This document shows positions 4,715 through 22,287 of a stretch of DNA of 64,000 bases, piece after piece (the first letter of the stretch is position 1; each line of letters opens with the position of its first letter). The DNA comes from Marinibacterium profundimaris (GTDB lineage: Bacteria; Pseudomonadota; Alphaproteobacteria; Rhodobacterales; Rhodobacteraceae), in NCBI RefSeq assembly GCF_002210095.1, contig NZ_AQQR01000001.1, positions 620,001 through 684,000 on the forward strand, in the 5' to 3' direction. The notes under the pieces were generated by a model. The model was not told the DNA's origin. It worked only from the letters and a program-made list of their open reading frames with translations, and ran no database searches. Position numbers and translations under genes: made by a program.

Positions 4715-5887
4715 TCAGCCGCGCGGCCCCGCCACGGGCCCCGGAGGATAGATCGCCACCCCGGTCATCGTGTGGTTGACGTGCAGCCCGTCAATCTGCT
4801 CGCCGTAGCTGGAAAACCCGACCACCCGGAAACTGCGCAGGATCTCGGACACCTTCGCCGTCAGCTGGTGATCCTCCGCCTCGATCCGGCGCAGGATGCA
4901 ATCGAAGGCCAGGATCGCCTCAGGATGCACCTCGTCGGCCAGGCCCGACAGATGGCTTTCAAGATGCGCGGCGATTTCCGTGGGCTCGCCCAGCGACAGA
5001 ACCAGCCCCTCGTCGATGGCCGATCCCATCGACAGCGACCGGTCGTCCAGCCGCTCCTGGATGCCGCGCACGTAATGCCGGTCGCCGAAGCGGACCACCA
5101 GCGGATGCGCCGCGAAGGTCGACAGGCTCACGTCCTGCGGATCCAGCCCCAGCAGGCGGGCATATTCCTCGATCGCCGGCGCCGCGTTGATCTCGTGCAC
5201 GATCCGCTTGCCCGGCTCCGCCCCGGTCACCACCAGCCGCCGGTCCGTGGGCGAGAAATGATCCAGGCTGAACACCCGCACCGGACAGGCCGAGCGCACC
5301 AGCGCGATCACCGCGCCCCCGGTCGAAACCTTGCCGCCATGGGCGATATAGGTGGTGCGGAAGGCGCGCCCGTCCCCGGCCGAGCCGCCGAAGAACGGCA
5401 TCCCCGCCAGCCCCGGCGCCAGTTGCCGCAGCAGCGCCTCCTCGCCCATCGACACGCCGTCGATCAGCCCGTAGGCGAATTCGGACAGCCAGTTCGGGTG
5501 ATCCGCCGCCAGCGCGTTGCGCTTGGCCACGATCGCGTTGATCAGCCCCTGGGTGTCGATATTTGCCAGGTCCGCGACCTCGACACATTCCACGGCGAAA
5601 TGCCGCGCTGGAAAGCCCACCGCCACGGTCGAGCCCTCGCAATAACCCTCGGGAGAGATCTCTCCGGCGGTCGTGCAGGCGCTGAGCGGGGCGGCGCAGG
5701 CATCGGTGGCAGCCTCCACCAGCCCGGCAAACCCGGGTCCGGGGGCCGAGAAGATCAGAACATGCGCGAAAGGGCCCTGCCCCAGCGCGGCGATCAGGTC
5801 ATGTGCCACGCCCGGGCCGGTCCCCGCAACCGAGGCCGTCCGCACCACGTCGGACGGGCCGCGACTAGGATCCAACTCCTCCACCAT
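4715..5887 (-). CDS. FIST-domain signal transduction protein (NosP-like)
   Basis: Cytoplasmic sensor-type protein of 390 aa with FIST N-terminal and C-terminal domains. The segments HVLIFSAPGPGFAGLVEAA, STAGEISP-type CTTAGEISPEGYCEGSTVAVGF, DGVSMGEEALLRQLA, FFGGSAGDG and the C-terminal FSSYGEQIDGLHVNHTMTGVAIY fit the family. In Pseudomonas, the FIST protein NosP (PA1975) is a heme-type NO sensor partnered with the kinase NahK (PA1976). Here it lies 40 nt downstream of pqqE, and a NahK-like kinase lies upstream of pqqA, so I infer a NosP role. Heme binding cannot be read from sequence. ATG 5887 is chosen; ATG 5965 would overlap pqqE by 38 nt. Confidence 0.82.
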   Translation of the reverse strand: MVEELDPSRGPSDVVRTASVAGTGPGVAHDLIAALGQGPFAHVLIFSAPGPGFAGLVEAATDACAAPLSACTTAGEISPEGYCEGSTVAVGFPARHFAVECVEVADLANIDTQGLINAIVAKRNALAADHPNWLSEFAYGLIDGVSMGEEALLRQLAPGLAGMPFFGGSAGDGRAFRTTYIAHGGKVSTGGAVIALVRSACPVRVFSLDHFSPTDRRLVVTGAEPGKRIVHEINAAPAIEEYARLLGLDPQDVSLSTFAAHPLVVRFGDRHYVRGIQERLDDRSLSMGSAIDEGLVLSLGEPTEIAAHLESHLSGLADEVHPEAILAFDCILRRIEAEDHQLTAKVSEILRSFRVVGFSSYGEQIDGLHVNHTMTGVAIYPPGPVAGPRG

Positions 5888-5927
5888 GGCGGCAGTTGTT
5901 CGGGTTTTGCCGCCAAGGTCAAGCGGT

Positions 5928-7028
5928 TCAGAGCCGGCGATAGACGAAGTCCGGTTCCGCCGCATCGACCACGTCGATCTCCAGCGCCGCGTCGACCAGC
6001 GCGCGGTGCGGCGATTTCCGGCACACCGGGTCGGTCGCGGTGGGATCCCCGGCGATGGCCATGGCCTGGCAGCGGCAGCCGCCGAAATCCACGTCGCGGC
6101 GGTCGCAGGTCTGGCAAAGCTCGGGCATCCAGTCGGTGCCGCGAAAGGCGTTGAAGGCCGCGCTGTCGTACCAGATCTCGCGCAGACCGGCCTCGGCGAT
6201 GGTGCGAAAGGTCAGGCCCGGGATCGTCTCGGCCGCATGGCAGGGCAGCACCTTGCCATCCGGCGCGATGTTCAGCCCCGTGGAACCCCAGCCGCCGCCC
6301 ATGCAGGCCTTGGGGTAGTCGGCGTAATAATCCGGGGGCACGAAATCGATGGCCAGCCTGCCCTTCAGCTCTCTCCGGGCGCGGGCGACGATGCGCTTGG
6401 CCTCGTCCACCTGGTCGCGCGAGGGCTGCAGCATGGCGCGGTTCTTCAGCGCCCAGCCCTGGAACTGCACGCAGGCGACCTCGATCCGCCGGGCGCCGAG
6501 CCGGACGGCCATGTCCAGCGTCGCGGGCAGATCGTCAAGGTTGTGGCGATGCATCACCGCGTTCAGCGTCAGCGGAAAGCCCATCTGCCCGATCCGCTCG
6601 GCCACGTGCATCTTGCGCTCGAACCCGCCCGTGTAGCCGCCGATCCGGTCGGCCACCGCCGCAGTCACCCCCTGCAGCGACAGCTGGATATGGTCCACCC
6701 AGGGCTCCAGCGCCTGCAGCCGCGCATCGGTCAGCCCGATGCCGGAGGTGATGAGATTGACGTAAAGCCCCGCCTCCCGCGCGCCTTTCGCCAGCTCCAC
6801 GATATCGCGGCGCGACACCGGCTCGCCCCCCGACAGATGCAGCTGCAGCACGCCCATCTCCGCCGCCTCGCGGAAGGCGCGCAGCCAGGTCTCGGTATCG
6901 AGCTCGGCCTCGCGCCCCGTCATCTCCAAAGGGTTGGAGCAATAGGGGCAGGCCAGCGGACAGCGATGGGTCAGTTCGGCCAGCATGGCGATGGGCGGCT
7001 GGACGGATATGCGGGCGGTGTCAGGCAT
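5928..7028 (-). CDS. pqqE: PQQ biosynthesis radical SAM protein PqqE
   Basis: Radical SAM enzyme of 366 aa that forms the carbon-carbon bond between the Glu and Tyr side chains of PqqA. The CX3CX2C cluster motif is CPLACPYC (C23, C27, C30), followed by the SAM-binding LHLSGGEP. The C-terminal SPASM cysteines are seen in CMGGGWGSTG, LPCHAA and LCQTCDRRDVDFGGCRCQA. The start overlaps the pqqD stop by 8 nt, so it is coupled to its peptide chaperone. It is the last pqq gene; the FIST gene follows on the same strand. Confidence 0.96.
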   Translation of the reverse strand: MPDTARISVQPPIAMLAELTHRCPLACPYCSNPLEMTGREAELDTETWLRAFREAAEMGVLQLHLSGGEPVSRRDIVELAKGAREAGLYVNLITSGIGLTDARLQALEPWVDHIQLSLQGVTAAVADRIGGYTGGFERKMHVAERIGQMGFPLTLNAVMHRHNLDDLPATLDMAVRLGARRIEVACVQFQGWALKNRAMLQPSRDQVDEAKRIVARARRELKGRLAIDFVPPDYYADYPKACMGGGWGSTGLNIAPDGKVLPCHAAETIPGLTFRTIAEAGLREIWYDSAAFNAFRGTDWMPELCQTCDRRDVDFGGCRCQAMAIAGDPTATDPVCRKSPHRALVDAALEIDVVDAAEPDFVYRRL

Positions 7029-7293
7029 AGGCGATCAGCATCTGGTCGGCGAGACCGTCGAGAAAGGCCACCACGTCGGGTTCGATGACGTCGCGTGGCG
7101 CGTTGTAGGTCTGCGCAAGCTGGCCTGCGATGTCGGAAAGCGAGCGCTGCCCGTCCACCTCCGACAGGATCGCCACCGCTGTCTGGTCCAGCATCAGCGC
7201 GCGTTCGGGGCCCAGAAGGACCTCTTGCCCGCGCACGGCATCGTGGTGGCGGCGCACGCCACGGGGCAGCACGGGGATGCGGTCGTCGCTCAC
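7021..7293 (-). CDS. pqqD: PQQ biosynthesis peptide chaperone PqqD
   Basis: RRE-type peptide-binding protein of 90 aa that presents PqqA to PqqE. The family core is visible: RIPVLPRGVRRHHDAVRGQEVLLGPERALMLDQTAVAIL, then DGQRSLSDIAGQLAQTYNAP and VVAFLDGLADQMLI. The start is GTG at 7293, overlapping the pqqC stop as GTGA; longer in-frame ATG starts would run into pqqC and do not match the family. It overlaps pqqE by 8 nt. Confidence 0.93.
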   Translation of the reverse strand: MSDDRIPVLPRGVRRHHDAVRGQEVLLGPERALMLDQTAVAILSEVDGQRSLSDIAGQLAQTYNAPRDVIEPDVVAFLDGLADQMLIAYA

Positions 7294-8030
7294 AGCAGGC
7301 CCTCGTGCGTGTTCCAGCCGCCGGGCGGGATGCGTCCGGGTTCGACATAGGCCGACCACAGCGCATCGAGCTGGGCCCAGAGCACATCCGTCTTGAACGT
7401 CAGCGCCGCGGCGGCCTCGTCCTGTTTCTCGGCGGTGTCGGCATGGTCGATCACCCATTGCAGGCCAAAGGCCACGTCCTTGGGCGCCTCGGTCAGACGG
7501 TGCCGGAAATAGGCGATCGTGTCGGGATTGGCGAAACCGTAATGCTCAAGCAGCCCGGCGATGCGCTGTTCGTGGATCTTGGGCGCAAAGAGCTCGGTCA
7601 GCGAGGACGCCACCGCCTGCAGCAGCGGCATGTCGCGCACATAGCGGACATAGGCATCCACGGCGAATTTCGTCGCCGGCAGGATGCCCTGTTCCGAAGC
7701 CACGTACTCCGGATCCAGCCCCACGCCCTCGGCCAGCTTCAGCCAGCGCTCGATCCCGCCCATGCGGCCCTCGGCCCCGTCGTGATCCTCGATCCGCGAG
7801 CGCCATGCGCGGCGCAGCTTCGGATCGGTGACGCGGCTCATGAAGGCGGCGTCCTTCATGGGGATGCGGCTTTGGTAATAGTAGCGGTTGATGACCCAGG
7901 CGCGGACCTCGTCCATGGTGCACTGGCCGGAATGCAGACGATGATGGAACGGGTGCTTGTCATGGTAGCGTTCGGCGCCGATCCGGCGCAGGCGGGCCTC
8001 GAAGGCGGAGGCGTCGGGGATGTCCTTCAT
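7290..8030 (-). CDS. pqqC: Pyrroloquinoline-quinone synthase PqqC
   Basis: Cofactor-free oxidase of 246 aa that performs the final ring closure and oxidation to PQQ. Family sequence is clear: FHHRLHSGQCTMDEVRAWVINRYYYQSRIPMKDAAFMSR near residues 28-66, then DHDGAEGRMGGIERWLKLAEGVGL, and LTELFAPKIHEQRIAGLLEHYGF. The start overlaps the pqqB stop (ATGA). Length is normal. Confidence 0.97.
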   Translation of the reverse strand: MKDIPDASAFEARLRRIGAERYHDKHPFHHRLHSGQCTMDEVRAWVINRYYYQSRIPMKDAAFMSRVTDPKLRRAWRSRIEDHDGAEGRMGGIERWLKLAEGVGLDPEYVASEQGILPATKFAVDAYVRYVRDMPLLQAVASSLTELFAPKIHEQRIAGLLEHYGFANPDTIAYFRHRLTEAPKDVAFGLQWVIDHADTAEKQDEAAAALTFKTDVLWAQLDALWSAYVEPGRIPPGGWNTHEGLL

Positions 8031-8926
8031 GGCGTGAACCTCGTGCCGTCCCCGGCAACGGTCCAGCCGGCGTCCCGCGCGATGGCGCGTTCGGGACCGT
8101 CGGGCTGCAGCACCGGGTTGGTGTTGTTGATGTGGATGAAGACCTTCGTCGCCGAAAGCCCGGCAAGCCGCGCGATGCTGCCCTCGGCGCCCGACATCGG
8201 GACATGGCCCATGCGCGCCCCGGTTTTCCGGCCGGTCCCTGTGCGGGTCATCTCGTCATTTTCCCAGACCGTGCCGTCGAACAGCAGCAGGTCGGCGTCC
8301 GACAGACGGTCGACCAGCCAGTCCGGCACCTCGGCGCAGCCGGGGATGTAATAGGCGGTGGTCGTCCCGTCGGTGATCCGCAGGCCGATGGTCTGCTCGC
8401 CCATGGCCCTGAGCGCCTCGCTGTCATCGGCGATGCCCTCGGCTTCAAGGTAGAGAGGGATCTTCCCCGGCACGGCGAAAGGCAGGATGGTGAGCCCGGC
8501 GGCCTCGAACGGGGTCTCGAGGCGTATCGTGTCGAAGGACACAAGCGCCCGGTCGAGCACACCGAAGACCGGGTTGGCCTCGATCACGCCGGCGGTCTCG
8601 GCGGTGGCGGCCACGCGGAACGCTGTCTTCTCGCGCAGCGTCAGCAGCCCCGCGACATGGTCGATATCGCCGTTCGTCAGGACCACCGTGTGGATCGGCG
8701 TATCCCGAAGCGCGCGCGGGTGGAATTCGGGTGTCCGGGCCAGCTGGTCGCGGATGTCGGGCGAGGCATTCAGGACGACCCAGTCGGTGCCGTCCAAAGA
8801 AACACCCACCGACGACTGGGTCATCGGTGGGATCTTGCCGGACCTGGCATCCGAGCAATTGGCACAGCCGCAGTTCCATTGCGGCAGGCCCCCGCCTGCC
8901 CCGGCCCCAAGGACCGTGACATGCAT
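8027..8926 (-). CDS. pqqB: PQQ biosynthesis protein PqqB
   Basis: Metallo-beta-lactamase-fold protein of 299 aa, which hydroxylates the Glu-Tyr diamino acid intermediate in the current model of PQQ synthesis. It starts MHVTVLGAGAGGGLPQWNCGCANC with the family CxCxxC motif, and has NGDIDHVAGLLTLRE, the variant of the HxHxDH-type metal motif typical of PqqB. It lies 7 nt downstream of pqqA and overlaps pqqC by 4 nt. Confidence 0.96.
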   Translation of the reverse strand: MHVTVLGAGAGGGLPQWNCGCANCSDARSGKIPPMTQSSVGVSLDGTDWVVLNASPDIRDQLARTPEFHPRALRDTPIHTVVLTNGDIDHVAGLLTLREKTAFRVAATAETAGVIEANPVFGVLDRALVSFDTIRLETPFEAAGLTILPFAVPGKIPLYLEAEGIADDSEALRAMGEQTIGLRITDGTTTAYYIPGCAEVPDWLVDRLSDADLLLFDGTVWENDEMTRTGTGRKTGARMGHVPMSGAEGSIARLAGLSATKVFIHINNTNPVLQPDGPERAIARDAGWTVAGDGTRFTP

Positions 8927-8933
8927 GGCTCGA

Positions 8934-9029
8934 TCAGAACAGGTCGTGATCCTCGTCTTCCGCGGGTCCGTACATGTTGATTTCCATCCCGCAGGCGATC
9001 GAAGTGGCGGTCGGCTTGGTCCATGCCAT
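8934..9029 (-). CDS. pqqA: PQQ precursor peptide PqqA
   Basis: Ribosomally made substrate of PQQ synthesis, 31 aa. The conserved E-x3-Y pair that becomes the PQQ skeleton is present as EINMY (Glu16, Tyr20). A strong ribosome binding site (GAGGAGG, 6-7 nt from the ATG) fixes this start and fits a highly translated peptide; upstream in-frame ATGs lack the family pattern. It is the first gene of pqqABCDE. Confidence 0.95.
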   Translation of the reverse strand: MAWTKPTATSIACGMEINMYGPAEDEDHDLF

Positions 9030-9140
9030 GGTTGATGTCCTCCTCATGAACTTTGGCTTTCGGTGTCGCGTCCCAGATAAGGGCCGCTGTGGGAAGAGCG
9101 TAGACCCGGCCGAGCGACCTGTCATTTTCCGTGGATGGCA

Positions 9141-9157
9141 TTCTCAGGTTCTGAGAA
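9141..9157. promoter_or_regulatory. Inverted repeat upstream of pqqA, possible operator
   Basis: TTCTCAGGTTCTGAGAA is a perfect 7-3-7 inverted repeat, 112 bp upstream of the pqqA ATG in the gap between the kinase and pqqA. NarL/LuxR-family regulators bind short inverted repeats, and such a regulator is encoded just upstream (11518-12186). The link is inference. Confidence 0.4.
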
Positions 9158-9203
9158 AACCGGGCCTGCGCCTACGACCTTTGTCTGCCGAAACGCCCCG
9201 AGA

Positions 9204-9219
9204 CGGCCCGAAAGGGCCG
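9204..9219 (-). terminator. Small GC hairpin after the kinase gene
   Basis: CGGCCC-GAAA-GGGCCG lies 12 bp beyond the kinase stop. It is a compact stem without a following T-run, so it is at best a weak or Rho-assisted terminator or 3'-end structure separating the kinase from pqqA. Confidence 0.3.
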
Positions 9220-9230
9220 GCGAGGAGCCC

Positions 9231-11456
9231 TCAGCCGGCCTCCATCAGCCGTTTCGCGGCACTTACCTCGTTGAGGAAATCCAGCAGTTGCGCCCGGTCG
9301 ATCGGCTTGTTGAGAATCTCCAGCCCGTGGTCCGTGCAATAGCGGCGCAGGTTGCGCGACCGGTCGGCGGTGACGATGCGACAGGCGCAGGGCCCGTGCT
9401 GGCCCGCGATCCGGTGATAGACATCCAGCCCGGTCGGACCCTCGCCCAGGTGATAATCCAGCAGCAGCGCATCGGGCACGATCCCGGCCTCGTTCATCAG
9501 CTCCACCGCGTCCTCGGCCGATTCCGCAGGCACCACCAGCCCGCCCCAGCCCTCGATATGCAGCGACAGCGCGCGGCGCAGCTGGCGGTCGTTTTCCACC
9601 AGCAGCACGATGATCCCGTCGCAATTGGGCTCGGCCAGGACCGGGCTCTCGGCGATCATGCCCCGGTCCGAGCCCCAGTAGGCATCAAGGATCGGCACCG
9701 AGACCGAGAAACAGCTGCCCTCGCCCGGGACCGATGTCACGCTCAGCGGATGGTCCAGCGAGGCGCAGGCGCGTTCCACGATGGCCAGGCCCAGTCCCAG
9801 CCCCTGGGCGGGGCCGGAGCCGGGATCGAGCTTGCGGAACTCCTCGAAGATGACGCGCTTTTCGTCTTCGGTCATGCCGCGCCCGGTGTCGCGCACCTCG
9901 ATCCGGGCGCTGTTGCCCTGCCGCCGCACGCCGACCACGATCCGCCCCCGGTCGGTGTAGCGCACCGCGTTCGAGATCAGGTTCTCGAGGATCCGCCGCA
10001 GATAGCCCGGATCGCTCTCGACCAGCAGCGACGAGGGCACGACCGTAAGGCCCAGCCCCTTGGCCACGGCCTGCGGCGTGAACTGGTCGCGCAGGATGCC
10101 GAATATGTTTTCCAGCGGGATCGGCCGGCGGTCCATCACCACCTTGTCCGCGTCCAGCTTGGAGATATCCATCAACGCCTCGATGATCTGTTCGAGATGC
10201 GCCAGCGAGGTCTCGGCCTTGCCGATGACGTTCAGGATCTGCTCGTCCTCGGAGGTGTCGGCGATCGACGAGATGAACAGCTTGGCCGAGCTGAGCGGCT
10301 GCATCAGGTCATGGCTGGCGGCGGCCACGAAGCGCGATTTCGACGCGGTGGCCCGCTCGGCATCGCGCAGCGCCTCCCCCAGCGCCTTGGTGCGTTCCTC
10401 CACCCGGCGCTCCAGCCCTTCGTTCAGGTCTCGCAGCGCGTTGTTGGCCAGCCGTTCGGCGGTGACATCGGTGAACGACATCACCACGCCCCAGCTGGGG
10501 ATGTGCCGGCCGAAGACCTTCAGGAAGATACGCCCGCCCTGCCTGACCTCGAATGCGATGGGCGGCTGAGTAGCGGCATTGCGCATCCAATCGCCCAGGT
10601 CGTCCGCGCCAAAACCGTGCGGAAAGGTCATGGTGCGGCCCATGTGCTCCTGCATCACCTCGGCCGAGAGTTTCTTGCCGGACAGCTGCGGCGGCAGGTG
10701 CAGAAGCTCCACCAGGCGTCGGTTCTGCCCGACCGCGCCGCCATCCTCGCCGAAGATGCAGACCCCCTGGTCCAGGTGATCCAGCGTCGCCTGCAGCAGC
10801 ATCGCCTGCCGGTCCATCAGCGCGTCGCGCTCCTGCCGCTCGACCCGGATCAGGTCGGTCACGTCGGAATGCATGATCACCGTGCCGCCGGTCGCGGTGC
10901 GCTGGGACGAGGTCTGGAAATACCGGTCGCCCATCAGGGTCACGTTGAAGCTGGCGGTGTTGCTGTCGTGCAGCGCCAGGCGCCAGTTCATCCAGTCCTC
11001 GGGCGAGCGGCGGTGCCCGAGATCCAGGAATTCGGACTCGCTCACCAGCTGCAGGTAGCGCCGGAAGGCAAGGCCCGGGCGGATATGCGGGGTCACGTCC
11101 TTGAGGTTCACGCAGAACCGCGAATTGGCCAGGATCAGCCGGTCGTCGGGGCCGAACAGCGCGAAGCCCTCGGCAATCGCCTCGATCGCTTCGGACAGGT
11201 GCGCGCGGGCGGCCCGGGCTGCGACATTGGCGACGCCCAGCTTCTCCTTGCTCTCGCTCAGCTGGTCCAGCGTGCGTTCCAGCGCGCGGGTCTGCTGCAG
11301 CATCTGCGCCTCGAGATAGGCGGCGCGCTCGAACTGGGCATAGGCCAGCTCGGACGGCGCGCTGGCCTGCTCCACGCGGCGGATCAGGCTTTCGACGATG
11401 CGCGACAGCTTGTCGTTCTGAACCTCGACCGGATCCTTCGGGTCGACGAAATCCAT
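9231..11456 (-). CDS. NahK/ErcS-type hybrid sensor histidine kinase
   Basis: Hybrid kinase of 741 aa without membrane segments, so cytoplasmic. An N-terminal coiled coil (~40-90) is followed by two PAS-like domains (~90-200 and ~220-335) and a second coiled coil. The HisKA motif is FVAAASHDLMQPLSS (His382), the ATPase boxes are NLISNAVRY, DTGRGM and GLGLGLAIV, and a C-terminal receiver has LLLDYHLGEGPTG (Asp667). This order matches NahK/ErcS' of Pseudomonas, linked to NO sensing and to PQQ-alcohol dehydrogenase control. ATG 11456 has AGGAGG upstream. It lies between a response regulator and pqqA on one strand. Confidence 0.87.
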   Translation of the reverse strand: MDFVDPKDPVEVQNDKLSRIVESLIRRVEQASAPSELAYAQFERAAYLEAQMLQQTRALERTLDQLSESKEKLGVANVAARAARAHLSEAIEAIAEGFALFGPDDRLILANSRFCVNLKDVTPHIRPGLAFRRYLQLVSESEFLDLGHRRSPEDWMNWRLALHDSNTASFNVTLMGDRYFQTSSQRTATGGTVIMHSDVTDLIRVERQERDALMDRQAMLLQATLDHLDQGVCIFGEDGGAVGQNRRLVELLHLPPQLSGKKLSAEVMQEHMGRTMTFPHGFGADDLGDWMRNAATQPPIAFEVRQGGRIFLKVFGRHIPSWGVVMSFTDVTAERLANNALRDLNEGLERRVEERTKALGEALRDAERATASKSRFVAAASHDLMQPLSSAKLFISSIADTSEDEQILNVIGKAETSLAHLEQIIEALMDISKLDADKVVMDRRPIPLENIFGILRDQFTPQAVAKGLGLTVVPSSLLVESDPGYLRRILENLISNAVRYTDRGRIVVGVRRQGNSARIEVRDTGRGMTEDEKRVIFEEFRKLDPGSGPAQGLGLGLAIVERACASLDHPLSVTSVPGEGSCFSVSVPILDAYWGSDRGMIAESPVLAEPNCDGIIVLLVENDRQLRRALSLHIEGWGGLVVPAESAEDAVELMNEAGIVPDALLLDYHLGEGPTGLDVYHRIAGQHGPCACRIVTADRSRNLRRYCTDHGLEILNKPIDRAQLLDFLNEVSAAKRLMEAG

Positions 11457-11517
11457 ATGCTCCTCCTGCGGCGGAGCGGTCGTCTGCCGGCCCCCCGCCA
11501 CGGGCAACAATGGGACG

Positions 11518-12186
11518 TTACTCGGTCTCAGGCAAGACGCTGGAGAATTTCGCCTGCTGCGCGACCAGAACCGCCTGCGTCCGGCTCTGCACGCCCAGCT
11601 TGCGCATGATCGCGGTGACATGGGCCTTCACGGTGGTCTCGGCGATCGACAGTTCATAGGCGATCTGCTTGTTCAGCTTGCCCTCGCAGATCAGCTCGAG
11701 GATGCAGGTCTGCTGCCGGGTGAGCGAGGCGAGCCGTTCGACCGTGTCGAGCTTGTCGTCCATGTCGGGTGTCTCGACATAGCCGGGGGGCTTGTAGACC
11801 TCGTGGTTGCCGACGGCCTGCAGCGCCTCCTTGAAGACGGCGCGGCGGCTGTGCTTCGGCACGAAACCCGAGGCGCCGGCATGCAGCGCGGCCGAGATCA
11901 TGGCGTTCTCGCACATCGACGAGACCACGATGATCGGGCACGGGCCGACGGCGGCCTTCAGCTTGACCAGCCCGTCAAGGCCGCTGACATCGGGCAGGTT
12001 CAGGTCCAGCACAATAAGCGAGGGTTTCGAGCGGGCCGATATCGTGTCCATCGCCGAGGCCATGCAATCGGCCGTGGCGATGTTCTGCAGGGAGGAGACC
12101 GCTCTCAGCGTCAGTTCGAGGGCATCGCAGAACAGAGGGTGATCGTCGATAATCAGCGCCCAGTCCGATGTCTTCTCCTGGCTCAT
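11518..12186 (-). CDS. LuxR/NarL-family response regulator
   Basis: Response regulator of 222 aa. The receiver has LIIDDHPLFCDAL and the phosphoacceptor Asp61 in IVLDLNLPDVSGLDG; the C-terminal HTH is TRQQTCILELICEGKLNKQIAYELSIAETTVKAHVTAIMRKLGVQSRTQAV. It is 61 nt upstream of the hybrid kinase on the same strand, so the two are a likely pair. ErbR/ExaE-type regulators with this architecture control PQQ-dependent alcohol oxidation in pseudomonads, which fits the pqq operon downstream. ATG 12186 is chosen over an upstream ATG whose extension is unlike the family. Confidence 0.86.
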   Translation of the reverse strand: MSQEKTSDWALIIDDHPLFCDALELTLRAVSSLQNIATADCMASAMDTISARSKPSLIVLDLNLPDVSGLDGLVKLKAAVGPCPIIVVSSMCENAMISAALHAGASGFVPKHSRRAVFKEALQAVGNHEVYKPPGYVETPDMDDKLDTVERLASLTRQQTCILELICEGKLNKQIAYELSIAETTVKAHVTAIMRKLGVQSRTQAVLVAQQAKFSSVLPETE

Positions 12187-12487: not shown

Positions 12488-14617
12488 TCAGCGAAGCCTC
12501 ATGGCATTCAGGATGACGGTGACCGAGCTTGCGGACATGGCCAACGCCGCCCAGAGCGGGGTGACGAAGCCGAGGATCGCGAAGGGCACGGCGATGAGGT
12601 TGTAGACGGCGGCCTGGCCGAAATTCTCCAGGATCAGCTTGCGCGCCTTGCGGGCGGTGGCGATCGCGTCGTCGATGCCCGAGAGCGCGCCGGTGACAAG
12701 CACGATATCGGCCACGTTGCGCGGCGCCTCCAGCGCCGAACCCGGCGCGATGGAGGCATGGGCCGAGGCCAGCGCGGCGGTGTCGTTCAGCCCGTCGCCG
12801 ACCATCAGCACCTTGTGCCCCTGCCCCTGCAGCTCGGCCAGGTAGGCCTGCTTGTCCTCGGGCGTCATCCGCGCGCGGGCTTCGGTCGCGCCAAGTGCCG
12901 CGCCGATGGTCGCCGCCTTGTCGGGCGTGTCGCCGGTGAGGATATGCACCGGCAGGCCCCGCGCGGCCAGAGCGGCCACGGCCTCTGCCGCATCGGGCAG
13001 CAGGTGTTCGGTGGGCGCCAGCGGCCAGTTTTCGCCGTCTACGGCAAACGCCGTGCCCTCGCCCGGCGCCCCGGCCCAGCCGGCGCGGCCCAGCCGGACC
13101 TCGCGGCCCGCCCAGATCGCGCGGACGCCGTTGCCGGCCTCTTCCACGATACTGTCCAGCTGCGCCGGCTGCAAAGGCGCCAGATGCGCCGCCAGCCCGC
13201 GCGACAAAGGGTGGTCCGAGGCCATGGCCAGCGCCATCAGCACCGGGGCCAGGTCTTCGGGCAGATCCTCGGGCGGGGTCAGCGCCGCGCGGGTCAGCGT
13301 GCCGGTCTTGTCGAAGACCACCATGTCGATCTCGGCCAGCCGCTCCAGCGCGGTGTCGGATTTCACCAGCAGCCCGCGCCGGAACAGCCGACCCGTCGCC
13401 GCCGTGGCCACCGCCGGCACGGCAAGGCCAAGCGCACAGGGACAGGTGATGATCAGCGTGGCGATGGCCACGTTCAGCGCCTGCCGCAGGTCCCCGGTCA
13501 GCACGACCCAGCCCAGGAAGGCCAGGAAGGAGACCAGGTGCACCGCCGGCGCGTAGATCTTCGCCGCGCGGTCGGCGAGGCCGGTGTAGCGGCTGCGCGC
13601 GTTTTCCGCGACTTCGACCAGGCGGGTCATGCGGCGCAGGGTCGTGTCCTCGCCCACCGCCGTCGCGGCGACTTCGATCGGGCCGGTCAGCGTGACCTCT
13701 CCGGCCGACAGCCGGGCGCCCCGGCCGCGCGCGACCGCCAGGCTTTCGCCGGTGATGGCGGATCGGTCGACCTCGGCCCCGTCCGACAGCAGCTCTGCAT
13801 CCACCGGCAGGCGTGCGCCGGCGGCCAGCCACAGCCGGTCGCCCACGGCGATCTCGGTCAGCGGGCGGCTCACATGGGCGCCGTCCTCGATCCGGATCAC
13901 GCGGGAGGATTCGAGCGCGGCCAGATCCTGCGCGGCGGAGCGCGCGGCCCGGCGCATGCGCTGGTCCAGCACGCGGCCCGCCAGAAGGAAGAAGGTCAGC
14001 GACAGCGCCGCGTCGAAATAGGCATGCGCCCCGCTTTGCGTCGTCTCGTACAGCGACATGCCGCAGGCCAGCAGGATCGCCAGCGAGATCGGCACATCCA
14101 TGTTCAGCCGCCCGGCCTTCAGCGCCGACCAGGCGTTGGAGAAGAACGGCTGAGCGGCGAAGAGCGCTGCGGGAATGGCGATGGCAGCCGAGATCCAGTG
14201 GAACATGTCCCGCGTGGCATCGGCCGCGCCGGACCAGACCGCCACCGACAGGAGCATGACGTTCATCATGGCAAAGCCGGCGACGCCCAGCCGCACGATC
14301 AGCATCCGCGTGCCGTCATCCGGCAGGTTCAGCTCCTGCGCCTCGTGCGCCTCGAACCCGCCCTCGGCCAGGGCGCGGATCCAGGGCGTCGGATCGGCCT
14401 CCGGGTCGGCGGTGATCGAGGCGCGCTTCATCGTCAGGTTCACCCGCGCGCCCGAAATGCCGGGCTGCTGCGCCAGGATCCCCTCGACCGAGCGGATGCA
14501 GCCGGCGCAATGGATGCCCGGCAGGACCAGGTGATGCGTGGCCGGGCCATCGGCCTGCCCGGCCGCCGCGGCGACCGGCGCCGCCGCGATACATCCGGGA
14601 CAGGCCGCGACACTCAC
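12488..14617 (-). CDS. ccoI: Copper-exporting-type P1B ATPase CcoI/FixI
   Basis: P-type ATPase of 709 aa that supplies copper for cbb3 assembly. The N-terminus carries a Cys-containing start (ACPGC) and a heavy-metal domain with GIHCAGC. The membrane CPC motif is in TCPCALGLAVPA, the phosphorylation site is DKTGTLT and the hinge is VGDGLNDTAAL. The start overlaps ccoH by 4 nt. CcoI rather than CopA is clear from the ccoG-H-I-S order. Confidence 0.95.
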   Translation of the reverse strand: MSVAACPGCIAAAPVAAAAGQADGPATHHLVLPGIHCAGCIRSVEGILAQQPGISGARVNLTMKRASITADPEADPTPWIRALAEGGFEAHEAQELNLPDDGTRMLIVRLGVAGFAMMNVMLLSVAVWSGAADATRDMFHWISAAIAIPAALFAAQPFFSNAWSALKAGRLNMDVPISLAILLACGMSLYETTQSGAHAYFDAALSLTFFLLAGRVLDQRMRRAARSAAQDLAALESSRVIRIEDGAHVSRPLTEIAVGDRLWLAAGARLPVDAELLSDGAEVDRSAITGESLAVARGRGARLSAGEVTLTGPIEVAATAVGEDTTLRRMTRLVEVAENARSRYTGLADRAAKIYAPAVHLVSFLAFLGWVVLTGDLRQALNVAIATLIITCPCALGLAVPAVATAATGRLFRRGLLVKSDTALERLAEIDMVVFDKTGTLTRAALTPPEDLPEDLAPVLMALAMASDHPLSRGLAAHLAPLQPAQLDSIVEEAGNGVRAIWAGREVRLGRAGWAGAPGEGTAFAVDGENWPLAPTEHLLPDAAEAVAALAARGLPVHILTGDTPDKAATIGAALGATEARARMTPEDKQAYLAELQGQGHKVLMVGDGLNDTAALASAHASIAPGSALEAPRNVADIVLVTGALSGIDDAIATARKARKLILENFGQAAVYNLIAVPFAILGFVTPLWAALAMSASSVTVILNAMRLR

Positions 14618-15072
14618 AGGCGGTGCTCCATTTCAAAGCGGCGGCGATAGCGCGTGCCGTCATCGGCCACGGCCTCAAGCCGCAGGTCCCACTTGCCAGC
14701 GCCAAGCGCGGGCACATGGGCGACATAGGCCTCGCCGTCCCAGGCGAAGACGGGCGTGCGATCCTCGCCCACATGGGTGGCGCGGCCCAGCGTCGCCTTG
14801 GTGATCGTCGGCATGGCCGGCCCGTTCACCGTGTCGAAGCGCAGCACCAGGAAATCGTCCTGGATCACCGCCGAGGCCTGCCATCCCAGAGCCTCCTGCG
14901 CGGCGCGGTCGGCGTTGAAGGTCTGGCTGGCGACGTAGGAGTTCTTCGTCTCCAGCCCCGGAAAGGTGCGCACGGCGTTGTAGGCCAGGGTGAGGTTGAC
15001 GGCGATGATGATGCCGAAGCCCAGGCCGAAGATCATCGCCACATGGCGGCCCTTCAGGGTGAACTCGCTCAT
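14614..15072 (-). CDS. ccoH: cbb3 oxidase maturation protein CcoH (FixH family)
   Basis: Membrane-anchored assembly factor of 152 aa. A single N-terminal helix (HVAMIFGLGFGIIIAVNLTLAYNAV) is followed by the family motif TFPGLETKNSYVASQTFNADRAAQEALGW and a periplasmic beta-rich domain. It overlaps both ccoG and ccoI by 4 nt, so the maturation genes are tightly coupled. Confidence 0.93.
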   Translation of the reverse strand: MSEFTLKGRHVAMIFGLGFGIIIAVNLTLAYNAVRTFPGLETKNSYVASQTFNADRAAQEALGWQASAVIQDDFLVLRFDTVNGPAMPTITKATLGRATHVGEDRTPVFAWDGEAYVAHVPALGAGKWDLRLEAVADDGTRYRRRFEMEHRL

Positions 15073-16496
15073 TGATCGTCCCTTCCGTTGAAGATCGTGT
15101 CGTGATGCGTCCGCTCGCCCGAGGCGAGATCCTCGATCCAGAAGCGGATGTCCGTGCGGTCGGCCTGCGACGGGCCCGCGTCGCGCGGCGCGATGACATA
15201 GACCCGCTGGGTCATCGTCTCGTTCGCGGGCACCATCACGGTCTCATAAACCGTGCCTTCAAGCGAGACCCGAAGCGTGTTGTCGCCCTCGACATGGATA
15301 CGATAGGGGCGATCCTCGCCGTTCTTGTTGCGCAGGCGCATGTCGTAGGAATTGCGGATCGAGCCGTCGGACATGGTGACATAGGTGGGGTTGCGGATCG
15401 GCGAGACGTTGACGTCGAAATCCGACCGCACGAAGAGCGCCCAGACCAGGCCCACCCCCACCAGCGACCAGAGCGCGGTGTAGATGATCGTTCGGGTGCG
15501 GAAGATATGCTGCCAGACCGGGCGCGGCTTCTCGCCCGCCTCCTCGCGGGGCTGGTCCGACAGGGCAAGGTAGTCGATCAGTCCCCGCTCCTTGCCGACC
15601 TTGGCCATGATGTCGTCGCAGGCGTCGATGCACAGCGCGCAGGTGATGCATTCCATCTGCTGGCCGTCGCGGATGTCGATCCCCATGGGGCAGACGTTGA
15701 CGCAGGCCATGCAGTCGATGCAATCGCCCAGCTGTTCCGACCCTTCCGCCTTGCGATGCTTGCCGCGCGGCTCTCCGCGCCATTCGCGGTAGGCCACGGT
15801 CAGCGTGTCCGAATCCATCATCGCCGCCTGGATACGCGGCCAGGGGCACATGTAGATGCAGACCTGTTCGCGCATGAAGCCGCCGAAGATGAAGGTTGTG
15901 GCGGTCAGGATCAGCATCGTCGTGTAGGCCACCGGCGGCGCGCTGAAAGTGACCAGCTGGCTTGCCAGGGTGGGCGCATCCGCGAAGTAGAAGATCCAGG
16001 CGCCACCCGTTGCCAGCGCGATCAGGAACCAGGCCGCGAACTTGATGGCGCGAAGGCGCACCTTCTTCGCGGTCCAGCCGGACTGCCAGAGCCGGACGCG
16101 CGCGTTGCGGTCGCCCTCGATCCAGCGTTCGACCAGCATGAACAGGTCCGTCCAGACCGTCTGCGGGCAGGTATAGCCGCACCAGACCCGCCCCAGCGCC
16201 GAGGTGAACAGGAACAGCCCCAGCCCGGCCATGATGAGCAACCCGGCCACGAAATAGAATTCATGCGGCCAGATCTCGATCCAGAAAAAGTAGAAACGCC
16301 TCCCGGCAAGGTCGATCAGCACGGCCTGGTCGGGCAGGTTCGGCCCCCGGTCCCAGCGGATCCAGGGGGTCAGGTAGTAGATGCCCAGCGTGATCCCCAT
16401 GATCCACCATTTCAGCGTGCGGAAGCTGCCCTTCACGCGGCGGGGAAAGATCGGCTCGCGGGCGGCATAGAGGCTGTCGGGTGCGGAATTGCTCAT
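15069..16496 (-). CDS. ccoG: cbb3 maturation iron-sulfur protein CcoG
   Basis: Membrane protein of 475 aa with five or so N-terminal helices, two [4Fe-4S]-type motifs (CIDCMACVNVCPMG and CITCALCIDACDD) and a C-terminal periplasmic domain. CcoG is reported to act as a copper reductase in cbb3 assembly. The conserved CGYTCPQTVWTDLFM and CIYMCPWPRIQ are present. It leads ccoGHIS, and an FNR-like palindrome lies 70 bp upstream of its ATG. Confidence 0.95.
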   Translation of the reverse strand: MSNSAPDSLYAAREPIFPRRVKGSFRTLKWWIMGITLGIYYLTPWIRWDRGPNLPDQAVLIDLAGRRFYFFWIEIWPHEFYFVAGLLIMAGLGLFLFTSALGRVWCGYTCPQTVWTDLFMLVERWIEGDRNARVRLWQSGWTAKKVRLRAIKFAAWFLIALATGGAWIFYFADAPTLASQLVTFSAPPVAYTTMLILTATTFIFGGFMREQVCIYMCPWPRIQAAMMDSDTLTVAYREWRGEPRGKHRKAEGSEQLGDCIDCMACVNVCPMGIDIRDGQQMECITCALCIDACDDIMAKVGKERGLIDYLALSDQPREEAGEKPRPVWQHIFRTRTIIYTALWSLVGVGLVWALFVRSDFDVNVSPIRNPTYVTMSDGSIRNSYDMRLRNKNGEDRPYRIHVEGDNTLRVSLEGTVYETVMVPANETMTQRVYVIAPRDAGPSQADRTDIRFWIEDLASGERTHHDTIFNGRDDQ

Positions 16497-16566
16497 GGAA
16501 CTGGCGGCCTTGTGGTTGCAGGGGTCGGCACGGCTCCGGACCTATCGGCGGGCGGTGAAGCCAGCC

Positions 16567-16580
16567 TTGACATAGGTCAA
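16567..16580. promoter_or_regulatory. FNR-family box upstream of ccoG
   Basis: TTGACATAGGTCAA is a perfect TTGAC-N4-GTCAA palindrome. It differs from the FNR consensus TTGAT-N4-ATCAA only at the inner base of each arm. Its centre is ~77 bp from the ccoG ATG, which suits an activating position near -41.5 with a ~36-nt leader. Either FnrL or a Dnr/NnrR-type regulator could bind. Confidence 0.6.
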
Positions 16581-16875
16581 CCGGAATGTGTGGAGCCGTC
16601 GACCTTGCATGCAGTCTATGCCTCTGAACGCCGGCCGAAAGGTCCTGCGACAATGCGCGACACGGGTTTCGGGGCCGGTGTCACGCGCCCGTGATCGCAG
16701 CTGCGGCATGGCGTCCCGCCGTTTTCGGCAAGAGGTGTCGAACGAAGCGTAGCGCGGCGCCGGCATCCGGGCAAGCGTCCCTGCCGGGGGCGTCGCGAAG
16801 GGCAAACCCGGCCCAGCGGCCGACTCAGGTCCGGGGCCCGAAACGGGCCGGATCGCTCACTGCGCGGCCGGAACC

Positions 16876-16902
16876 CAAAAAGGCGCCGGATGATCCGGCG
16901 CC
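16876..16902 (-). terminator. Rho-independent terminator of ccoNOQP
   Basis: On the minus strand GGCGCCGG, ATCAT, CCGGCGCC forms an 8-bp GC stem with a 5-nt loop, followed by TTTTT. It lies about 120 bp past the ccoP stop and before the ccoG promoter. Confidence 0.72.
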
Positions 16903-17024
16903 TTGTTGCTTTGGTTGGCCTGTCGCTTTGGTTGGATCGTCGGGATCCCATCGTCCCGCCGGGCCGGCCTTGCGGCCTCCTCGGGCGGATCCGTTTCACA
17001 GGGATCCCGACACGGGGCGGACCC

Positions 17025-17906
17025 TCATTCCTCCTCAGGTGCCGCCTCGCCTCCCCCAAGGCCGTGGACATAAAGCGTCACGGCCTTGATCTCGGCATCG
17101 CTCAGGCGCGGGCCCCAGGGGGGCATCACGCCGAAACGCGCATCATGGATCGTCTCGGTGATCGTATCGCGGTCGCCGCCGTAAAGCCAGATCGCATCCG
17201 TGAGGTTCGGTGCGCCCTGCATCCGGTCGCCGGTGCCGTCGTCGCCATGGCACGCCGCGCAATTGTCGGCGAAGAGCTCGGCCCCGGTGTCGGCCATCCC
17301 GGCATCGTATTCCTGCCCCGAGATTTCCAGCACGTATTCCGTGATCGCCGCGATCTCGCCCGTCGACAGTATTTCGCCAAAGGCGGGCATCTGCGAATAG
17401 CGCGCATCCGGATCGGCCTCGTTGCGGATGCCGTGGCGCACGGTGTATTCGATCGAATTCAGATCGCCGCCCCAAAGCCAGTCGTCGTCCAGCAGGTTCG
17501 GATAGCCGCGCGCGCCGGCCGCCCCTGCCCCGTGGCATTGCGAGCAATTGGCCCGGAACACGGCGGCGCCGCCGGCGATGCCGTAGCTGTGCGCGGGGCT
17601 GGACGGATCCAGCGTGTTCAGATCCGCCGCGGCAAGCTGGGCAGCCACCTCGGCGTTCTGCGCCTCGACGCGGGCGATCTCCTCGGCGACCTCGCCGCGG
17701 GTCGAATAGCCCAGCAGGCCGCCGGTCGCGCGGTTGACCATGGGCCAGGCCGGGTAGGCGATGGTGTAGAGCAGCCCGTAGACGATCGTGGCGTAGAACA
17801 GCCACAGCCACCAGCGCGGCAGCGGGTTGTTGAGTTCGCGGATGCCGTCCCACTCGTGACCCGTCGTTTCCACGCCGGTGACGTCGTCCTTCTTGTTGTC
17901 AGCCAT
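17025..17906 (-). CDS. ccoP: cbb3 cytochrome c oxidase diheme subunit CcoP
   Basis: Membrane-anchored diheme cytochrome c of 293 aa. An N-terminal helix around residues 32-52 (WLWLFYATIVYGLLYTIAYPAW) is followed by two heme-binding sites, CSQCHGAGAAG and CAACHGDDGTG, each with a distal Met region (YSQMPAFG and GVMPPWG). The family motif HEWDGIRELNNPLPRWW is present. ATG 17906 shares a base with the ccoQ stop (TGATG); a GTG one codon upstream is the alternative. GGAG lies 8 nt before the ATG. Confidence 0.96.
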   Translation of the reverse strand: MADNKKDDVTGVETTGHEWDGIRELNNPLPRWWLWLFYATIVYGLLYTIAYPAWPMVNRATGGLLGYSTRGEVAEEIARVEAQNAEVAAQLAAADLNTLDPSSPAHSYGIAGGAAVFRANCSQCHGAGAAGARGYPNLLDDDWLWGGDLNSIEYTVRHGIRNEADPDARYSQMPAFGEILSTGEIAAITEYVLEISGQEYDAGMADTGAELFADNCAACHGDDGTGDRMQGAPNLTDAIWLYGGDRDTITETIHDARFGVMPPWGPRLSDAEIKAVTLYVHGLGGGEAAPEEE

Positions 17907-18121
17907 CACGCTGTCTCCGATGTCTTGGATTCACTGGCAGTGTCGCCGCTGTCGCGGCGGCCCGGCTTGTCGTCACGCAACGGGATGCTGGCGGTGTCGC
18001 GATAGGTCTTGCTGGCGCCGGGGCGGAAGACCCAGACCACGACGCCGATGAAGAAGATGAACATCGCCAGCAGCATCCAGCTGTCCGCGAAGTGCCGGAA
18101 GATGGAATATGTGTCGTCCAT
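17906..18121 (-). CDS. ccoQ: cbb3 oxidase small subunit CcoQ
   Basis: Single-helix membrane protein of 71 aa: MDDTYSIFRHFADSWMLLAMFIFFIGVVVWVFRPGASKTYRDTASIPLRDD. The segment VFRPG...YRDTASIPLRDD is the CcoQ signature. The C-terminal tail is polar and longer than in enteric-type CcoQ. It stabilises the complex in known systems. It lies 9 nt downstream of ccoO and overlaps the ccoP start. Confidence 0.93.
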   Translation of the reverse strand: MDDTYSIFRHFADSWMLLAMFIFFIGVVVWVFRPGASKTYRDTASIPLRDDKPGRRDSGDTASESKTSETA

Positions 18122-18130
18122 GGTTCCCCC

Positions 18131-18961
18131 CTATCGGCTCTCGTCCACGGTGAAGGTCGAGAAATCGACCATCGTGCCCAGCACCTGGAGATAGGCGATC
18201 AGCGCGTCCATCTCGCTTACGCCCGGCTGGCTGTCGAAGTTCGACACCGCCGCGCCCGGGTAGCGTTCGAGCATCCCGTCGTAATCGCGGTTGGGATCGG
18301 CCTGCGCCAGCAGGTCGGACTGGGCGTTCTCCAGCATCTCGTCGGTATAGGGCACGCCGACCATCGCATGCGTGCGCATCAGGTCCTCGACCCGGGCGAA
18401 CTCCAGCGGGGTGTCCAGCAGGAAGCCGTATTTCGGCATCACGCTTTCGGGCACCACCGATTGCGGATCGACCAGGTGATCGACATGCCAGGCGTCGGAA
18501 TACCGCCCGCCCACGCGCGCCAGGTCCGGCCCGGTCCGCTTGGACCCCCACTGGAACGGGTGGTCGTACATCGACTCCGCCGCCAGCGAGTAATGCCCGT
18601 AGCGTTCCACCTCGTCGCGCATCGGCCGGATCATCTGGCTGTGGCAGACATAGCAGCCTTCGCGCACATAGATGTCACGGCCCTTCAGCTCGAGCGGGGA
18701 ATAGGGCCGCACCCCTTCCACTTCCTCGATCGTGTTCTCGAGCCAGAACAGCGGCGCGATCTCGACGATGCCACCGACGGTGACCACGAGGAAGGAGAAG
18801 ATGAAAAGCAGCGTCGGGCTCTTTTCGAGGATCGCGTGCTTGTTGATGAAGGCCGAATGGTGGGGCAGTTCGTTGGGGATTTCCTCGGGGAAATCCTTGA
18901 GCTGGCTCACCTTGGGGTCTTCGTCGGGGCTCGGGATCTTGTCGTTTTCGTTCTCAGCCAT
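18131..18961 (-). CDS. ccoO: cbb3 cytochrome c oxidase monoheme subunit CcoO
   Basis: Membrane-anchored monoheme cytochrome c of 276 aa. The family core is clear: [68 protein letters not shown] with the CYVCH heme site, and [13 protein letters not shown]. An acidic N-terminal extension of ~30 residues ([23 protein letters not shown]) precedes it, making the protein longer than the usual ~240 aa. The start is 9 nt after the ccoN stop. Confidence 0.95.
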
Positions 18962-18970
18962 GACTTGTCC

Positions 18971-20578
<1,608 letters not shown>

Positions 20579-20667
20579 AGCTTTTCCCATAGCTCGGGCG
20601 CACGGGCGTCACACACCCCGTGCACGAATTCTCCACGCCGTCATGCAGTCTTCGGCCTTGCCCCTCC

Positions 20668-20681
20668 TTGATTTACATCAA
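20668..20681. promoter_or_regulatory. Consensus FNR/FnrL box of ccoNOQP
   Basis: TTGATTTACATCAA matches the FNR consensus TTGAT-N4-ATCAA exactly. Its centre is ~96 bp from the ccoN ATG, so a start point 41.5 bp downstream would leave a ~55-nt leader, as in an FnrL-activated class II promoter. fnrL itself lies 1 kb away. Confidence 0.88.
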
Positions 20682-20853
20682 GAAGCTCCCATGAACCTTA
20701 GCAGATGCGACAGCGTCGCGGCACCTCCCTGCGCGTCACGATGTCCGCGGCGCGCCAAGGGGTCGCAGGAGGCGCGGGCCCGCCGCCTGGCCCGGCGCGC
20801 CTGTCCGGACGGGCGCGTCCCGCAGGACACGGCAGCCCGGAAATTTTGGGATA

Positions 20854-20872
20854 TCATGCACTTGCAGCATGA
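20854..20872. promoter_or_regulatory. Inverted repeat upstream of the cupin gene
   Basis: TCATGC-ACTTGCA-GCATGA is a 6-7-6 inverted repeat inside a locally AT-rich patch, 84 bp upstream of the cupin ATG. It may be an operator for an unidentified regulator, since no regulator gene adjoins. Confidence 0.4.
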
Positions 20873-20955
20873 AATCTTCTTTGTACGACCGCGACCCGCG
20901 CCGTAGCATCGGTGCCGTTGAACCAGAAGCGCAAGCGTTATCCAGGGAGATCGCC

Positions 20956-21399
20956 ATGAGCGAATTCACCAAGACAAACGACACCGTGGAATGGCTGGGG
21001 ACGTTCTACAAGACGATCCTCGATCCGGCCGCGACCGGCGCGGGGATGTCGATCGTCGACAGCCTCTCGCCCCCCGACAGCGGCCCGCCGCGGCATGTTC
21101 ACCATGCCGAGGACGAGATCTTCGTGATGCTCAGCGGACAGTGCCGCTTCTGGCTGGAGGGGACGGAAACCGTGGCCGGCACCGGCGAGACGGTCTTCAT
21201 CCCACGCGGCAAGGAACACACGTTCAAGGTCGTGGGCAACGAGCCCTCGCGCCACCTGATCATCCTGACGCCGGGGGGATTCGAAGGGTTCTTCCACGAC
21301 ATGGCCAGCGGCGCCTTTGCCATTCCGGCCGACATGCCGGCCATCGAAGAGAGCGCCAAGCGCCACAACATGTCATTCACCGGGCCGCCGCTGGACTGA
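20956..21399 (+). CDS. Cupin-domain protein of unknown function
   Basis: Single-domain cupin of 147 aa. Motif 1 is PPRHVHHAEDEIFVMLSG, giving the metal-binding His-x-His...Glu set; motif 2 is GETVFIPRGKEHTFKVVG with its His. This is the pattern of small quercetinase-like or storage-type cupins, and the substrate is not predictable. ATG 20956 follows GGGAG at good spacing; a longer ATG frame from 20869 gives a poor N-terminus. It is convergent with fnrL and divergent from ccoN. Confidence 0.8.
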   Translation: MSEFTKTNDTVEWLGTFYKTILDPAATGAGMSIVDSLSPPDSGPPRHVHHAEDEIFVMLSGQCRFWLEGTETVAGTGETVFIPRGKEHTFKVVGNEPSRHLIILTPGGFEGFFHDMASGAFAIPADMPAIEESAKRHNMSFTGPPLD

Positions 21400-21417
21400 C
21401 CCCGGCGGATGCGCCGT

Positions 21418-21441
21418 GTGCAGGCGTCCCGGCGCCTGCAC
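21418..21441. terminator. Hairpin between convergent cupin and fnrL genes
   Basis: GTGCAGGCG-TCCCGG-CGCCTGCAC is a perfect 9-bp stem with a 6-nt loop, just after the cupin stop. There is no T-run on either side, so termination is uncertain, but its place between two convergent genes fits a shared 3'-end structure. Confidence 0.42.
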
Positions 21442-22269: not shown

Positions 22270-22287
22270 GTGGGGGTCGTGTCCGGG

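Follow-up and report, generated by a model that had tools for sequence, protein, structure and literature searches.

The genome of Marinibacterium profundimaris contains a locus in which the biosynthesis genes for pyrroloquinoline quinone (PQQ), pqqABCDE, are merged with genes for a LuxR-type response regulator (RR), a PAS-PAS hybrid histidine kinase (HK) and a FIST/FIST_C protein (henceforth FIST), in the order RR-HK-pqqABCDE-FIST. It lies in the window analysed here, a stretch of 64,000 nucleotides (positions 620,001 to 684,000 of contig NZ_AQQR01000001.1) of a 6.15 Mb genome. The kind of regulation is already known, and the merged locus is real and genus-specific. We consider it reasonably likely that it represents a rearranged form of the RR-FIST-HK cassette, which is widespread in alphaproteobacteria and accompanies periplasmic oxidation of alcohols and aldehydes there, that this cassette was merged with pqq in the genus, and that an alcohol or one-carbon (C1) signal drives the pqqABCDE-FIST unit through the RR. 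PQQ supply would thus probably be tuned to alcohol or formaldehyde metabolism and not to nitric oxide (NO), since the module elsewhere often adjoins alcohol- or aldehyde-oxidising enzymes. The gene content and order, their conservation in the genus, the co-occurrence across genomes and the enriched motifs are direct observations; for a link between the regulators and PQQ control, the support is an inference drawn from related systems.

All eight genes are carried by the minus strand, and Pfam and NCBIfam scans confirm their content, order and common strand as given in the original prediction. The features of the locus are as follows:

4715..5887, minus strand: FIST/FIST_C protein, a NosP/GfdT-like sensor candidate (Pfam; open frame extends to 5965)
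5928..7028, minus strand: pqqE, radical SAM and SPASM (Pfam Radical_SAM and SPASM, open reading frame list)
7021..7293, minus strand: pqqD (Pfam PqqD on 7021-7302; GTG start read from the sequence; 4-nt overlap with pqqC)
7290..8030, minus strand: pqqC (Pfam TENA_THI-4)
8027..8926, minus strand: pqqB (Pfam Lactamase_B_2)
8934..9029, minus strand: pqqA precursor peptide, 31 amino acids (NCBIfam TIGR02107, 27.8 bits against a cut-off of 20)
9142..9156, no strand assigned: 15-bp dyad TCTCAG-N3-CTGAGA, 113 bp upstream of pqqA
9169..9190, minus strand: right half, ACAAAGGTCGTAGG, of the operator predicted for the cassette RR; taken alone, a weak site (1.9 bits, regional p 0.066)
9231..11456, minus strand: PAS-PAS hybrid histidine kinase with receiver, NahK/ErcS'/FlhS-like (Pfam, NCBIfam)
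11518..12186, minus strand: LuxR-type RR, AgmR/ErbR/FlhR-like (Pfam Rec and GerE; open frame to 12228)

The complete set pqqA, B, C, D and E is contiguous by both Pfam and NCBIfam, with its genes tightly packed or overlapping. The start of FIST is more likely at 5887 than at 5965, as an ATG is present there and the protein of a genus relative (locus L097) begins at the same point, and with this start the gap between pqqE and FIST is 40 bp. Both FIST domains score well above their Pfam gathering values (PF08495, 122 bits against 23.2; PF10442, 69 bits against 28.5), and the protein is the single FIST match in the whole genome. The kinase comprises PAS_7 in two stretches, followed by HisKA, HATPase and Rec domains (Pfam). 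The 201-bp gap between the kinase and pqqA, which contains two conserved elements, together with a strong hairpin 3' of the kinase in the other two of our three genus genomes, G150 and G151 (z -6.1 and -3.7 against shuffles), suggests that the RR and kinase genes are transcribed separately from pqqABCDE-FIST; the same evidence disfavours a single eight-gene operon. The equivalent hairpin position in the window is ordinary against shuffles (z -1.05). No T-run terminator was reported after the kinase in a scan of the window, no sigma-70-like promoters were found between 4400 and 12700, and no Rfam family matched anywhere in the window.

The order RR-HK-pqqABCDE-FIST, situated next to ccoG-ccoI, is present in all three genus genomes examined, with 81-86% identity between their FIST proteins; the physical joining of the regulators with the PQQ pathway that had been proposed is preserved in these genomes. 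Beyond it, the merged order was not found in any locus examined. The 85 other loci, five on plasmids and the rest being the 80 best of the 584 matches listed for a species collection, follow the usual RR-FIST-HK order on one strand in 81 cases and lack an RR match in the remaining four; the homologues in titled records are mostly from Rhodobacterales. In a family sample of 150 genomes, one per genus, pqqC is found in 32, and FIST lies within 25 kb of it in 16 of these and within 5 kb in three. Among the 69 FIST places of this sample, only that of the window is at most 3 kb from pqqC, although FIST is next to pqqE in every genus genome examined. One genome, G027, shows the order RR-FIST-HK-pqqABCDE; relocation of FIST in such an arrangement could have produced the order seen in the window. 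Among FIST proteins from other genera, that of G039 comes nearest in the FIST tree; its gene borders the edge of a contig, and the piece examined contains no match to an RR, a kinase or pqq. These trees were quick reconstructions with SH-aLRT support only, and no placement was drawn from the kinase tree, in which long branches were met. As a side observation, the pqqC match is split in two pieces in G101 (C44:253220-253943) and in G042 (C16:455053-455765), in the latter along with pqqB, which suggests frameshifts or assembly errors.

The genomic company of the cassette points to oxidation of alcohols and aldehydes: PQQ-alcohol dehydrogenase and molybdenum-hydroxylase genes are frequent neighbours, pqq genes less frequent ones. 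FIST was counted in 57 genomes of the family sample, one 27%-identity match (G066) of an initial 58 having been dropped. A PQQ-alcohol dehydrogenase is present in 40 of the 57 and in 6 of the 93 genomes lacking FIST (odds ratio 34, p 1e-16), and pqqC in 27 of 57 against 5 of 93, figures that carry no phylogenetic correction, though each genus contributes one genome, and that weigh less for our reading on this account. Of the 46 genomes counted with the dehydrogenase, 44 pass the family cut-off. In 15 of the 46 (14 of the 44 above cut-off) no pqqC match accompanies it, and it is possible that these are PQQ auxotrophs that import the cofactor. At the level of loci, we distinguish a window-type FIST, with 43-53% identity to that of the window and including the latter, from a lower-identity type with 35-41%. 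A PQQ-alcohol dehydrogenase gene lies at most 5 kb from 21 of 51 window-type FIST genes, mostly at about 1 kb, and at most 10 kb from 8 of 18 genes of the lower-identity type; the examined loci of the latter type also include XoxF-like enzymes nearby (two) and glutathione (GSH)-dependent formaldehyde dehydrogenase (GSH-FALDH) nearby (five). A molybdenum (Mo)-hydroxylase large-subunit gene occurs in 31 of 58 solitary cassette loci. Solitary RR-FIST-HK cassettes (L099-L114, L159-L236) were seen with Mo-hydroxylase (coxL/M/S-like) and CoxG neighbours, with the operator predicted below repeated before coxG (19 sites); for each of these and of the other neighbour clusters, a single representative supplied the annotation. 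In the five plasmid records, a PQQ-dependent methanol/ethanol dehydrogenase is named nearby in three, pedF in three, and FIST appears as GfdT in one.

These neighbourhoods bear directly on the original prediction, under which a NosP-type haem/NO sensor (FIST) and a NahK-like kinase make PQQ supply follow NO, an explanation that we regard as improbable. In its favour, the window FIST is a full-length homologue of NosP (NF041558, E 1.9e-99), and binding of haem and/or NO has been reported for FIST-FIST_C proteins (PMC8846402, PMC12570481). An Azospirillum relative with 42% identity exceeds the NosP cut-off (501 bits against 450); the annotation of this plasmid-borne FIST is NosP, its neighbours include genes for formate and aldehyde dehydrogenases, and a gene of the NnrS family is located at a distance of about 10 kb. 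Homology and this one distant relative are what would speak for an NO link. Against it, the window protein reaches 333 bits and five other Rhodobacterales FIST proteins 349-404 bits, all under the curated NosP cut-off, and the kinase is similarly below the NahK/ErcS' cut-offs (NF041831, NF041832: 374 against 1500; 337 against 400 for the C-terminal domain model). FIST is not associated with nirK (5 of 57 genomes with FIST, 14 of 93 without, p 0.32; 150 genera), and no nirK was found in the window genome, nirS and nor not having been searched in either case. The neighbouring genes and the predicted regulon concern alcohol and aldehyde oxidation, and the characterized Rhodobacterales relatives (AfdRS, RfdRS and FlhRS) act in formaldehyde and methanol metabolism. 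A response of PQQ supply to NO is thus poorly borne out.

The reading that we prefer, control by an alcohol or C1 signal, draws further on a predicted operator, AATTGCACAATGGTCGTA, located upstream of alcohol dehydrogenase, pedF, coxG, RR and some pqqA genes. The heptamer AAAGGTC is enriched before RR genes (51 of 128, against 5.2 expected), and GGTCGTA before PQQ-alcohol dehydrogenase genes (33 of 42, against 1.4 expected). A 22-bp matrix with the consensus AATTGCACAATGGTCGTAGGAC was trained on 34 of 38 deduplicated alcohol-dehydrogenase promoters, and the accepted dehydrogenase sites are 87-129 bp upstream, in a single orientation, with 17.8-37.9 bits. At a threshold of 15 bits, 175 non-redundant loci (7 of 182 were removed, reducing 109 raw sites to 103) yield 39 sites before dehydrogenase genes, which are the training genes, 21 before pedF, 19 before coxG, nine before RR, eight before pqqA, two before aldehyde dehydrogenase genes, and five elsewhere; ten column-permuted matrices yield 2-9 sites each, with none before those genes. 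The recognition helix of the RR (residues 195-212) hardly varies among 116 window-type RRs, and its consensus is matched by the RR of the window. From these patterns we infer that the cassette RR binds the predicted operator. Sites before pqqA were scored by genome in 30 of the 32 pqqC genomes (G046 and G084 not included). This recount replaced a tally by locus (seven with FIST in the locus, one without), because two loci (L081 and L188) are the same contig and some loci are cut between pqqA and FIST. The site is present in five of the eight genomes in which pqqA has a window-type cassette at most 25 kb away, and in two of the 22 others (Fisher p 0.007); the two consist of one of eight genomes with the other cassette type nearby and one of 14 with neither nearby (G058, whose cassette is elsewhere).

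In the window genus itself, the right half ACAAAGGTCGTAGG or a close variant occurs upstream of pqqA in all three genomes, where it adjoins the dyad. Across 274 kb of sequence from the genus, a half-box pattern has eight hits against one for its reversed control, namely three before pqqA, two before xoxG, one intergenic before the PQQ-ABC genes of G151, and two elsewhere, a tally that is descriptive given that the pattern was derived from sites it then counts. Alcohol and C1 genes are preceded by the predicted operator in other genera, whereas the window genus shows no more than half-sites. The best matrix hit within the window (19778, 11.2 bits) is inside ccoN and was set aside as chance.

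The PQQ enzymes of the organism are encoded elsewhere in the genome. In line with the original prediction that no quinoprotein dehydrogenase lies in the window, the methanol/ethanol-type model (TIGR03075, E <= 0.001) has no match in the window range, and the sole protein of this family above cut-off in the genome is a XoxF-like enzyme on contig C23. It contains the DYD motif. This motif we take to be the lanthanide signature of XoxF. Its neighbourhood comprises an adjacent GSH-FALDH gene together with MoxJ-like, CXXCW and PQQ-ABC genes, and the gene following xoxF is labelled xoxG here, since in the two genomes where it was scanned, G151 and G004, it matches a methanol-related cytochrome (TIGR03874). 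A glucose-type relative on contig C38 scores 799 bits, just below the model cut-off of 833.

Several observations weigh against our reading. No full operator precedes pqqA in the genus, the three genomes scoring 1.9, 3.3 and 5.8 bits (p 0.04-0.07 each in the region), and besides the window genome, G121 and G101 also have no pqqA site despite a window-type cassette nearby. The only methanol/ethanol-family quinoprotein of the window genome is of the XoxF type and not ExaA-like; window-type cassettes elsewhere adjoin ExaA-like dehydrogenases (34-39% identical to the XoxF of the window genome) or Mo-hydroxylases, and it is the lower-identity subtype, not that of the window, that is found by XoxF and GSH-FALDH. 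Of 134 loci in the FIST tree, 44 have neither a PQQ-dehydrogenase nor a Mo-hydroxylase, pqq or GSH-FALDH neighbour. An rfdT mutant of Rhodobacter sphaeroides left adhI unaffected (PMC4776306).

To these must be added the dyad TCTCAG-N3-CTGAGA, which marks PQQ/C1 promoters in two genera. At one mismatch or fewer it has five sites in the window genome, before pqqA, xoxG, xoxF, PQQ-ABC and one elsewhere, and four sites each in G150, G151 and G004, of which three, two and three, respectively, are at promoters of the PQQ/C1 type. The six perfect sites in these four genomes are all at such promoters, and the reversed pattern has no hit in any of the four. Dyad positions noted outside the window are 5408, 11525 and 13574 of L129, 4477 of L091, 464 of L266, and 9245 of L267. 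G004 displays the dyad before pqqA, PQQ-ABC and GSH-FALDH in a genome with no FIST and no orthologue of the RR (best match 31%), which weakens the dyad as a candidate operator of the cassette RR and argues that it is probably read by a second regulator. An OmpR-type RR and a HAMP-type kinase are encoded near xoxF in the window genome and in G150, with a 48-50% relative of the kinase in G004, and this two-component pair is possibly the regulator of the dyad.

The dyad raises the alternative that the locus is a juxtaposition devoid of function, in which a cassette landed by pqq, FIST was displaced, and pqq obeys the dyad-binding regulator only. We hold this to be rather unlikely, though it is the most plausible of the alternatives. 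It would readily account for the shared dyad of the pqqA, xoxF, xoxG and PQQ-ABC promoters in the genus, for its presence in the cassette-less G004, and for the cassette operator at pqqA being a half-site only. It sits less well with the retention of the merged order in all three genomes at the FIST identities given above, with the conservation of the half-box beside the dyad in the same three, and with the lack of a second FIST match in the window genome.

Under the preferred reading of a merged cassette responding to alcohol or C1 compounds, the PAS-PAS kinase, probably a soluble protein, would be modulated by FIST. A putative signal from alcohol or C1 oxidation would lead the kinase to phosphorylate the LuxR-type RR, which would bind a predicted AAAGGTCGTA-type operator, modelled on other genera and represented by a half-site in this genus, and switch on pqqABCDE-FIST. 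The PQQ so made would be supplied to the XoxF-type methanol dehydrogenase encoded elsewhere, beside the glutathione-dependent formaldehyde dehydrogenase. FIST would rise together with PQQ synthesis and, its gene being the last of the pqq unit, might feed back on the kinase with either sign; the position of FIST at the end of a cofactor unit suggests such feedback.

The same terminal position of FIST in the genus could be taken to mean that it senses PQQ itself, an intermediate of its synthesis or the product of a PQQ-dependent reaction, making the module a sensor of cofactor supply. An AlphaFold2 model of FIST (mean pLDDT 89.9, a confident prediction) finds its best PDB fold matches in FBXO22 (Z 19-20) and, more weakly, in the Toblerone/chorismatase folds (Z 10-12), which include enzymes acting on small ring compounds; a profile search of PDB sequences gave no FIST match. 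A shared fold, however, reveals no ligand, most FIST cassettes are not near pqq, many adjoin Mo-hydroxylase genes, and in 16 of the genomes that encode FIST, pqqC and PQQ-alcohol dehydrogenase are both without a match. This explanation therefore seems very unlikely, and we attach equally little probability to its extension, in which relocation of FIST made a closed loop, with FIST reading PQQ, an intermediate or a quinone-derived aldehyde and setting the kinase so that supply meets the demand of distant dehydrogenases.

Outside the locus, a cbb3 cluster at 12488-23681 comprises ccoN, ccoO, ccoP, ccoG, a copper P-type ATPase, FnrL and hemN, with ccoNOP, ccoG, FnrL and hemN all above NCBIfam cut-offs. 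A gene order of this sort is usual in Rhodobacterales. The cluster, which the original prediction took to extend a respiratory theme, looks independent of the PQQ locus. What appears to be a zinc uptake locus lies at 599-2633, where an ABC ATPase recognized by eye is flanked by a ZnuB-like permease and by a regulator of the Fur family whose nearest match is Zur; neither of these two reaches its NCBIfam equivalog cut-off.

Two groups of characterized systems most closely resemble the window locus. In afdR-afdT-afdS, rfdR-rfdT-rfdS and flhR-orf2-flhS, an extra frame lies between the RR and the kinase genes; AfdRS of R. sphaeroides activates adhI in formaldehyde (PMC4776306), and FlhRS of Paracoccus denitrificans is a formaldehyde/methanol regulator (PMC8879981). 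As the corresponding loci of Cereibacter johrii, C. ovatus and Paracoccus kondratievae are RR-FIST-HK, AfdT, RfdT and orf2 are, by analogy with these relatives, presumably FIST proteins. The window locus shares with the Afd, Rfd and Flh systems a Rhodobacterales host and the grouping of a LuxR-type RR, a FIST and a PAS-PAS hybrid kinase, in systems that there control formaldehyde and methanol oxidation; unlike them, its FIST follows pqqE, with pqqABCDE between kinase and FIST, so that its order departs from RR-FIST-HK. The ped cluster of Pseudomonas holds nosP/GfdT, NahK/ErcS'/PedS1 and AgmR/ErbR, of which the last activates pqqFABCDE, and in some pseudomonads it includes a complete pqq operon (PMC12997753). 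The same three kinds of protein (there PP_2663, PedS1 and AgmR) occur in both, in Pseudomonas within one region together with PQQ-dependent alcohol oxidation. In P. putida, however, the FIST gene shares a cistron with that of the kinase, at a distance from pqq (PMC12997753), whereas the window FIST belongs to the pqq unit and has no alcohol dehydrogenase match in its vicinity. The pairing of a FIST/FIST_C protein with a hybrid kinase also recalls NosP-NahK, from which the window differs by scores under the family cut-offs and by a LuxR-type RR with predicted metabolic targets in place of an Hpt or c-di-GMP output. Among the papers that full-text searches of the open literature returned, no title or opening abstract line describes the merged order or the predicted operator. 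Since the link between these regulators and PQQ is already known in Pseudomonas, the novelty lies in a merged order specific to the genus and in the operator predicted here.

No role has been settled for the FIST partner in the Afd, Rfd and Flh systems, whose mode of formaldehyde sensing is unexplained (PMC4776306). A FIST tied to a cofactor operon, together with a sharp operator predicted at alcohol dehydrogenase, cytochrome, Mo-hydroxylase-linked, regulator and pqq promoters, would make both the regulon and the role of FIST testable, and it cautions against taking each FIST-kinase pair for an NO sensor.

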